Origin: Dehalococcoidia bacterium
GTDB taxonomy: Bacteria > Chloroflexota > Dehalococcoidia > Tepidiformales > Tepidiformaceae
Direction: 5' to 3'
Assembly: GCA_020432045.1 (NCBI GenBank)
Contig: JAGQHB010000078.1
Coordinates: forward strand, 1 to 64,000
Length of the DNA: 64,000 nt
In this document: positions 9,631 through 12,000 of the stretch, piece by piece
How the letters are laid out: each line of letters begins with the position of its first letter
Numbering within the stretch: position 1 is the stretch's first letter
Made by a program: the position numbers and the translations under genes
Notes under the pieces: model-generated
Told to the model about the DNA's origin: nothing
Database searches by the model: none
The model's input: only the letters and a program-made list of their open reading frames with translations

Positions 9631-10833
9631 CTAAGCGGGAGCACCCGCCTGGATGAAAAGGCCACGGTTGATGGATGCGAGGCGATCCACGCCAGCTTCG
9701 TCGAGAATGGCCACGTACGCACGCAGCTGGGCTTCGCGGATCTCACGGAGTTTCGCTTTGCCTTGCTGGATATTCTCGACACCGCCCCCGAGGAGGACGG
9801 CGATCGGTTCTGACTCCTGGGTGCTGCATTCGAGCTCATTCGCGAGCGCAGCCTCAGCACGGTTGAAGAAGTGGTTCAGGTACTCGCGAGCGTTGGGATG
9901 ATGCTGCACGTAGTACTTGAGGTGGCGCTTCCCGTACTCAAGGTGGCGATGGGAATCGACAGCGAGCCGCGCAAAGATATCCCGATCGACGGCAAGCGGC
10001 AGGATCTCCGCCAGCTTTTCGAACAGGACGACCTCGTAGCTCTTGTAGACAACGTCGATGGCGACAGCCAGTTCTGTAAACTTGAGCGCGCCAAACCAGG
10101 CGCGATACAACGTGCCAAGCCCGGCCTGTCCCAGACCGCCACCGTTCGATAGTGCCCGCTTGCGAAGCACCTCGACCTTCCGGCCCGAATCAAAGATCTG
10201 CGTGGCAACGAAGTTCTTCATGTCGTGGAAGCCGTAGGCGATCTTCTCTTCCCATTGGGCGAGTAGTTTGCTTTCGGTCAGGCCGTGCTGCGCGAAGATC
10301 GTGCAGACCTGGCAAACGGCACGCTCGATATCGTCCGGCTGCGCTTCAAGCGCCTTCCAGTCGATATCGGTGGCCGGTGCCCAGCGCTCGCGAATGGCCT
10401 CCTCGTACATGAGATCGACGTCCTCGGCCCACACCTCACTCTTGTCGTACACCGAGTACGAGCCGGGAGCGTAGGCGCCGGGTGTCGGGTGCGACCCGAG
10501 AGGCGTGTCGTTTTCGTATGGCCAGCGATCGGGCACGTAGCCGTAGCTGCCGATATTGATCTCGCGCATCCCGAGGCCGTTCGGACCGGGGCGAGCCTTA
10601 ATCCCCAACTCCGTGGTCGGCCGCGCCCAGTTCAAGTTGAACTGGAGAAACGACTGCTCCGGATTGGATTCGATGATTCCCAGGTATCTGCCGGCGCGCT
10701 CCTCCGTAATGTGAAGCGCAAGCAGGTTCATGACCTGGTAATCCTTCAGGGGCGACGCCTCGAAGCGGGCGACAAGTTCGTCCGACCACGGCGCCTCGCG
10801 CGCGCGCAGCTTGGTTGCTGGGGTGAGGTTCAT
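9631..10833 (-). CDS. Ferritin-like/R2-like protein with degenerate diiron site (paralogue of upstream gene)
   Basis: A 400-residue helical protein clearly paralogous to the next gene upstream: shared YEEA, PDD-E, RKRAL-NGGG and HLKY blocks, with an ungapped 55-residue match around the second ligand helix. Metal-ligand positions in the paralogue (E129, E161, H164, E207, E237, H240) align with G184, S216, K219, K264, S294 and H297 here, so only the last His survives. Two Lys now sit in the core. It has about 50 extra N-terminal residues. It starts 8 nt after the upstream gene's stop, so both are almost certainly co-translated. I infer a non-metal partner subunit or a metal-independent enzyme. 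Confidence 0.85.
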   Translation of the reverse strand: MNLTPATKLRAREAPWSDELVARFEASPLKDYQVMNLLALHITEERAGRYLGIIESNPEQSFLQFNLNWARPTTELGIKARPGPNGLGMREINIGSYGYVPDRWPYENDTPLGSHPTPGAYAPGSYSVYDKSEVWAEDVDLMYEEAIRERWAPATDIDWKALEAQPDDIERAVCQVCTIFAQHGLTESKLLAQWEEKIAYGFHDMKNFVATQIFDSGRKVEVLRKRALSNGGGLGQAGLGTLYRAWFGALKFTELAVAIDVVYKSYEVVLFEKLAEILPLAVDRDIFARLAVDSHRHLEYGKRHLKYYVQHHPNAREYLNHFFNRAEAALANELECSTQESEPIAVLLGGGVENIQQGKAKLREIREAQLRAYVAILDEAGVDRLASINRGLFIQAGAPA

Positions 10834-10841
10834 GCCTGCTC

Positions 10842-11876
10842 CTAGTCGAGCAGGGCCCGCATGGCCGGGGCCATGCGCTCGCGGCGATCGGCCATGCCGA
10901 TGACTTCGAGGCGATGCATGTACTCATTGATCTGGCGCTTGCGCATGATCATGAGCTTCTGGAATCCCTCGTCGATCTTGTCGATGCCGCCACCAGCGAG
11001 AATCGCAAGTGCTTCGGACGTCGCCGGGTTGGTCGCGAGACTGCCCTGGGTCTGTCCAAGTGCACCCTCCTGGATGTCCAGGTAGTGGTGCAGCTCTTCC
11101 TTGCGGTGCGGCTCGACATCCACGAGATACTTCAGGTGGGTGACGCCGAAGGCCAGGTGGCGCGACTCGTCCTGCGCGGCAAGACGGAAAATACGCTTCT
11201 CCGCGTCATTCGTCGAAATAAGCTCGCCCATGCGGAAGATGGTCTGCACGAAGCCTTCGCCCACGAGGTGCAGGCGCGCCGTCATTTCCGTGAAGTCATC
11301 GGCCGTGAGCAGGTTCGTGGCCCCGAAGCCGGAATCGACAAGTCCGCCGCCGTTGACAAGCGCACGCTTGCGGAACACATCCTCATGCCGCGACTCATCC
11401 ATCACTTGCGTGCCGAGGAAGAGCTGCGTTTCGAACTGGTCAGGATGGACCTGGCCCATGAACCGGCCGGGAAGGTCGCCTGCAATGAACTCGACCTGAG
11501 TTAGGAACGTGCAGAGCGTGCACATCGCCATCTCAAGGTCATCGGGCAGTTCGTGGATCTCGTCCCACGGGATATCTACCGCGGACGACCACTGGCGCTG
11601 CATGGCTTCTTCGTAGAGCATCCGCGCCGACTCGCTCCACACATCCGCCTTGGTCTTATACTGGCGGGCGTGTCGCGGCGAGCGGGGGTCGAGGACAGCA
11701 CCGCGCATCGCCATCGATGGGCGGCCGGCTTCATTCGGCACGTCGCCGTAGGTGAGGACGTTGAGATCCTCGAGCGTGAGGCCGCGTTTGCCGGGTTCGG
11801 CTTTGGCGCCCCAGCCTTCGTCGATGTTCAGCCAGGAAAGATCCAGGCCCGGATTAAGTGTAGGTGCTGTTGCCAA
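10842..11876 (-). CDS. Ferritin-like diiron (ribonucleotide reductase R2-like) protein
   Basis: A 344-residue four-helix-bundle protein with a complete carboxylate-bridged diiron ligand set: E129 (TQVEF), E161 and H164 (DESRH), E207 (VGEGF), E237 and H240 (DESRH). The E-to-ExxH spacings of about 30 are canonical for ferritin-like oxidases and R2 subunits. It is shorter than R2lox or NrdB enzymes in detail and no NrdA is nearby, so I do not call it a ribonucleotide reductase subunit. The start is a TTG preceded by GGAGGGG at good spacing. It leads a two-gene operon with the degenerate paralogue and has a palindromic operator-like element upstream. Confidence 0.85.
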   Translation of the reverse strand: MATAPTLNPGLDLSWLNIDEGWGAKAEPGKRGLTLEDLNVLTYGDVPNEAGRPSMAMRGAVLDPRSPRHARQYKTKADVWSESARMLYEEAMQRQWSSAVDIPWDEIHELPDDLEMAMCTLCTFLTQVEFIAGDLPGRFMGQVHPDQFETQLFLGTQVMDESRHEDVFRKRALVNGGGLVDSGFGATNLLTADDFTEMTARLHLVGEGFVQTIFRMGELISTNDAEKRIFRLAAQDESRHLAFGVTHLKYLVDVEPHRKEELHHYLDIQEGALGQTQGSLATNPATSEALAILAGGGIDKIDEGFQKLMIMRKRQINEYMHRLEVIGMADRRERMAPAMRALLD

Positions 11877-11959: not shown

Positions 11960-12000
11960 ATACCTTACCGTTCGGTTCGTCTAACCGGTCGGTAAGGTAT
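11960..12000. promoter_or_regulatory. 41-bp nested palindrome, probable operator of the diiron gene pair
   Basis: Arms of 18 nt (outer 11 bp ATACCTTACCG / CGGTAAGGTAT and inner 5 bp CGGTT / AACCG) flank a 5-nt centre, with one mismatch and one wobble between them. Each arm itself contains an ACCG-NN-CGGT dyad, so the element is a palindrome of palindromes. It lies 84 nt upstream of the TTG start of the diiron gene. No T tract follows on the minus strand, so an operator for a dimeric (TetR-like) repressor is more likely than a terminator. No TetR-type gene was found in the window. Confidence 0.6.

Follow-up and report, generated by a model that had tools for sequence, protein, structure and literature searches.

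At positions 9631 to 11876 of the window (the whole stretch of 64,000 nucleotides that was analysed) two ferritin-like genes, here named A and B, lie in tandem, and the locus raises the question of what a putative diiron oxidase subunit has to do with an adjoining paralogue that has lost its metal site. A sequence-only reading had proposed that the two products form a heterodimer of one catalytic and one structural or specificity subunit, or else that B works by metal-free radical chemistry. The features of the locus are as follows.

10842..11876, minus strand: gene A, R2-type ferritin-like diiron oxidase/oxygenase subunit (ORF of 344 aa, ligands EEHEEH, fold match to VlmB, ADO, R2lox and sMMO)
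9631..10833, minus strand: gene B, metal-site-less paralogue, pseudo-ferritin-like partner (ORF of 400 aa, ATG start)
10834..10841, minus strand: 8-nt gap between the A stop and the B start, with a GGAG overlapping the A stop (sequence inspection)
11960..12000, no strand assigned: inverted repeat, 18-nt arms, 89% complementary (ATACCTTACCGTTCGGTT/AACCGGTCGGTAAGGTAT), ~85–125 nt upstream of A

The gene pair and its ligand residues

Both ORFs were recovered as two adjacent ferritin-like genes 8 nt apart, and their products were aligned with 31% identity over 343 positions (E=1e-48), which makes them paralogues, as had been read from the letters. B carries an N-terminal helical extension of ~60 aa that is not present in A, and A begins with a TTG codon preceded by GGAGG. 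The 8-nt spacing and the GGAG that overlaps the A stop suggest a single transcript with coupled translation, and A and B are likely to be transcribed together. Consensus promoters and terminators were searched for the pair and none was found. The inverted repeat upstream of A resembles a TetR-type operator and is possibly one, the regulator type being one that we infer. In some relatives A and B are separated by strong G+C-rich hairpins (L072 at ~10236–10267, L077 at ~10070–10165) of 29 nt and 90–97% self-complementarity, which possibly are a dispersed repeat or control the A:B ratio.

All six ligand residues are kept in window A (E129, E161, H164, E207, E237 and H240). The aligned columns of window B hold G184, S216, K219, K264, S294 and H297, so that five of six are replaced and H297 is the one ligand-position residue still present; the alignment agrees with the residues that had been listed for both proteins. 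In the family alignment the set E,E,H,E,E,H was intact in 35 of 35 A-lineage proteins (one A is a fragment) and in all eight outgroup proteins, and the metal site was lost in each of the 35 B proteins. The cores that took its place fall into several subtypes. That of the window, G-x-K-K-S-H, is found in 16 of 35 B proteins, and the others read ALHDR, GxLDIH, xxHTLH, AYHxx, AAHGKH and ADADKH. The pair of core lysines is confined to the window subtype, the other 19 B proteins having unrelated substitutions and no such pair. Within the window subtype K219, K264, Y263, Y266 and E267 are invariant (16/16), E187 is present in 15 of 16, D215 is retained and D293 is near-invariant. In this subtype the metals may have given way to a salt-bridge core formed by K219 and K264 together with D215, D293 and the new acidic residues E187 and E267.

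Fold and relation to known diiron proteins

AlphaFold models of A and B, which are of moderate quality (built from 17 sequences, mean pLDDT 67 and 78), superposed on ferritin-like diiron oxidases, with the top match to VlmB (Z ~23 over ~250 residues) and matches at Z 20–24 to VlmB, aldehyde-deformylating oxygenases, R2lox and methane monooxygenase. Sequence searches of the PDB with A and with B gave no significant match, and neither protein reached a Pfam or NCBIfam cutoff.

The best structural matches of both proteins are to the VlmB azoxy synthase and the aldehyde-deformylating oxygenases (Z 21–24), with which A shares the six-ligand diiron set, but identity is only 12–20% and a common fold is no proof of function. 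We know of no metal-less partner of VlmB or of the aldehyde-deformylating oxygenases. R2lox resembles A in its R2-type fold, its six-ligand pattern and a lipid theme; R2lox proteins bind fatty acids (PMC6060897) and one of them has been reported to be an alkane monooxygenase (PMC10867098). The NCBIfam R2lox model was the best match for A, far below threshold (31.9 bits vs a cutoff of 194), and every A protein has Ala and Leu/Met where, judged by spacing from the ligands, the R2lox cross-link residues Val72/Tyr162 would lie. A was therefore rejected as an R2lox; a further difference is that the literature covered does not mention a metal-less partner of R2lox. A was likewise rejected as a ribonucleotide reductase R2 protein: it scored 14.7 bits with the Ribonuc_red_sm Pfam model vs a cutoff of 33.6 (B gave no match), and the radical Tyr site, four residues past the first ligand His, is occupied by Phe in all 35 A proteins and all eight outgroup proteins. 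Some R2 subclasses are also without the radical Tyr.

The nearest parallels to the pair as a whole are enzymes in which a catalytic diiron subunit is joined by a metal-less one. PaaA, a catalytic diiron subunit, forms a heterodimer with PaaC, which has a matching fold and a structural role (PMC4498308). The A/B split into a putative catalytic and a same-fold metal-less protein resembles this, the pairing being predicted here from genes and models, and PaaABCE also has in common with the present system a small third protein (here gene C, described below) and, around several A/B relatives, CoA-related genes. The systems differ in that A and B share 31% identity vs 17% for PaaA/PaaC, in that C is SCP2-like and not PaaB-like, and in that a linked PaaE-type reductase was not recognised; the Pfam family of PaaA/PaaC matched neither A nor B up to E=0.1. 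Methane monooxygenase and the phenol/toluene hydroxylases likewise have the same fold and a metal-less paralogous partner of the catalytic subunit, and the models gave Z ~20 to methane monooxygenase alpha and a similar value to beta. A is, however, much shorter than the catalytic subunit of these multicomponent monooxygenases, the A/B duplication is internal to its own family, and genes for gamma, effector and reductase components were not recognised beside A/B. The Phenol_Hydrox Pfam model did not match A; it matched a remote outgroup protein (L105) at E=1e-10. With no match to either Pfam model, A was rejected as a member of the PaaA or Phenol_Hydrox families.

No description of a pair of this kind was found in the literature searched, mostly outside subscription journals; the sequence-only reading likewise knew of none. 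The concept is nevertheless not new, since PaaA/PaaC and methane monooxygenase alpha/beta already combine a catalytic subunit with a metal-less one; it is the A/B family that is new.

Descent of the pair and a third gene

Pairs were searched in 301 + 400 Chloroflexota genomes, and a one-genome-per-species scan was made for B. An A-then-B tandem, on the same strand and in the same order, was found at 32 Chloroflexota loci including the window, and the recurrence of one order and one asymmetry at 32 loci shows that the asymmetry is not due to chance. The one-genome-per-species scan gave eight loci (close relatives only), seven of them in Chloroflexota and one unassigned. Gene order in other genomes had been named as a check on the proposed pairing, with intact ligands in both genes or lack of joint conservation as grounds against it; B was degenerate in 35 of 35 proteins and the genes are conserved together at the 32 loci, so that neither ground applies. 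Linkage is not absolute, since one A is without its own B nearby (L084) and in three genomes of one family (G277, G291 and G350) A and B lie on different contigs. At these split pairs (L081, L085 and L092 with L082, L086 and L091) the third gene, C, follows the B. A plasmid collection contained no relative of B and only two weak matches to A, at 25%. One weak relative of A (25%) is a ferritin-like protein on a Xenorhabdus plasmid (L107:7941-8699), near genes of condensation-domain, acyl carrier and sterol desaturase type.

In a maximum-likelihood tree of 77 proteins, including 34 A and 34 B, the A clade (95/97) was sister to the B clade (100/99) and the fully liganded singletons fell outside both, which points to a single duplication and a single loss of the metal site, after which the two clades diversified together. 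Over 30 pairs, A–A and B–B distances were correlated with r=0.91, the highest value in 5,000 permutations being 0.36. Three genomes carry three pairs each, and there the nearest relatives of an A and of its B belonged to the same pair type in another genome. B evolved ~1.8 times faster than A, and its dN/dS of 0.08–0.49 indicates purifying selection. The same B data bear on the possibility that B is a functionless duplicate in decay: the lost metal site and the faster evolution would fit, but selection, intact frames and deep conservation contradict a pseudogene, and this reading can be set aside as highly improbable.

In a second kind of tandem pair, at L102:9131-12060, an A adjoins a degenerate second copy (QYHNTH) that was placed outside the B clade. 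Constraining this copy into the B clade was disfavoured (p=0.029, the group having been named after the tree was seen). A second, independent origin of a metal-less partner is thereby suggested, and only at that strength because the branch is long and the group was named afterwards. In another genome (G312) an ORF at L125:5206-5940 combines a substrate-binding-protein-like start with the C-terminal quarter of a protein of the A family, and is a deletion product or an assembly error.

The sequence-only reading did not include a third component, C, of ~150 aa, which tracks the A/B family. C immediately follows an A/B-family gene, on its downstream side, at nine loci, two of which (L089 and L102) belong to the base of the tree; in the genome of the window it lies on another contig (G000:C41:50658-51083). 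Within the 400-genome sample, a C profile matched strongly in 17 of 17 genomes that carry the A/B lineage or the singletons nearest to it, and gave no strong match in the other 383. A class-level sample of 235 genomes, which shares genomes with the 400-genome sample, gave 73 with A/B and C, four with A/B only, two with C only and 156 with neither. Genomes with three A–B pairs have one C each, and in one family (f91) a single genome (G400) is without both A/B and C, the other listed members having both. Most positives lie in few families of one class, so the co-occurrence may in part reflect shared ancestry, and as the counts are inflated by it the p-values of co-occurrence are not to be taken at face value. 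In genomes with C alone a common gene adjoining C was sought and none was consistent. Profile comparison of C with SCP2 gave a probability of 97% and E=5e-11, the SCP2 Pfam model did not match C itself, and those of the weak matches of the C profile in the phylum that were checked were SCP2 by Pfam. By profile comparison, C is a remote SCP2 homologue.

Some relatives of the pair lie near genes for a thiolase with a ChsH2-type OB protein, CoA-transferase III, enoyl-CoA hydratase, SDR and luciferase-like monooxygenase, and the order at L102 is A-B-C-thiolase-OB; such gene types are common in these genomes. The window pair has no catabolic neighbours. Among the genes listed around pairs, no reductase or ferredoxin was consistently near and no effector or reductase genes were recognised.

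Candidate roles of B and C

The reading that best fits these data is that A and B are probably two different subunits of one heteromeric oxygenase with a ferritin-like fold, in which A would be catalytic and B structural or regulatory, while C may carry lipids or acyl-CoA. A and B were inherited and diversified together across many Chloroflexota, with C usually in the genome, and are for this reason probably parts of one multi-part oxygenase. We infer a physical A–B complex, the identity of the metal, the O2 chemistry, the class of substrate and the role of C. In the proposed scheme A would hold the dimetal site and activate O2, and B, derived from a duplication of A and now without the metal site, would have a structural or regulatory role beside it, probably filling one half of an R2-type dimer and stabilising or tuning A. 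In the subtype of the window a charged Lys/Asp/Glu network would stand where the metals were. C, encoded in trans in the window's genome, would probably present a hydrophobic or acyl-CoA substrate, or serve the complex in another way. The heterodimer that had been proposed for the pair is thus indirectly well supported, by the conserved tandem order, the clean division into catalytic A and degenerate B, the descent from one duplication, the matching A and B trees and the purifying selection on B. A fuller version is tentative and carries somewhat less than even weight: A, B and an SCP2-like C that delivers substrate would make up a hitherto undescribed Chloroflexota family of three-component diiron oxygenases, whose metal-less partner would have evolved independently of the methane monooxygenase and PaaC partners and possibly twice (L102).

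B may instead serve A as an accessory factor, that is as a regulator, as a chaperone of assembly or metal loading, or as an inhibitory paralogue that binds transiently. A tandem, co-diversifying and selected paralogue would fit any obligate partner and the ~1.8-fold faster evolution of B would suit such a role, but B matches A in fold and size and the closest precedents, PaaC and methane monooxygenase beta, are standing subunits, which by analogy makes this unlikely. It is improbable that the two proteins work independently of each other within one pathway, A being for instance a homodimeric oxidase while B binds a ligand or lipid without metal. The binding of fatty acids by the related R2lox (PMC6060897) and the three genomes in which the genes are unlinked are in favour of this reading, but the mirrored trees and near-constant adjacency fit a physical pairing better than joint membership of a pathway.

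Catalysis by B without metal, through a Lys/Tyr-based radical as in class Ie R2, was the second proposal of the sequence-only reading and appears very unlikely. Class Ie R2 proteins share with window B an R2-type fold, replaced metal-binding residues and a Lys among the replacements, and the invariance of K219, K264, Y263, Y266 and E267 throughout the window subtype would accord with such chemistry. In class Ie, however, exactly three ligand Glu are replaced, as VPK or QSK (PMC11846895), whereas four Glu and one His are gone from window B, so that positions and number differ; the position of the R2 radical Tyr is Leu in the window subtype, and the substitutions vary among B subtypes. An NrdI-like gene was not noticed next to A and B. 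With the lysines in one subtype only and a pattern unlike class Ie R2, radical chemistry is a weak candidate, and as a general explanation of B it was rejected.

If A and B are the unlike subunits of one oxygenase, they would add a further, independent example of a diiron enzyme gaining a twin without a metal site, in a family for which no Pfam model scores above its cutoff. Metal-less partners would then arise repeatedly and the reason for this would become testable, the B subtypes, with very different dead cores and the same kind of partner, providing a natural mutational series. An SCP2-type carrier would be linked to a diiron oxygenase, and the family would offer a way to approach the possible oxidation of lipids or acyl-CoA in Chloroflexota, which are for the most part uncultured.
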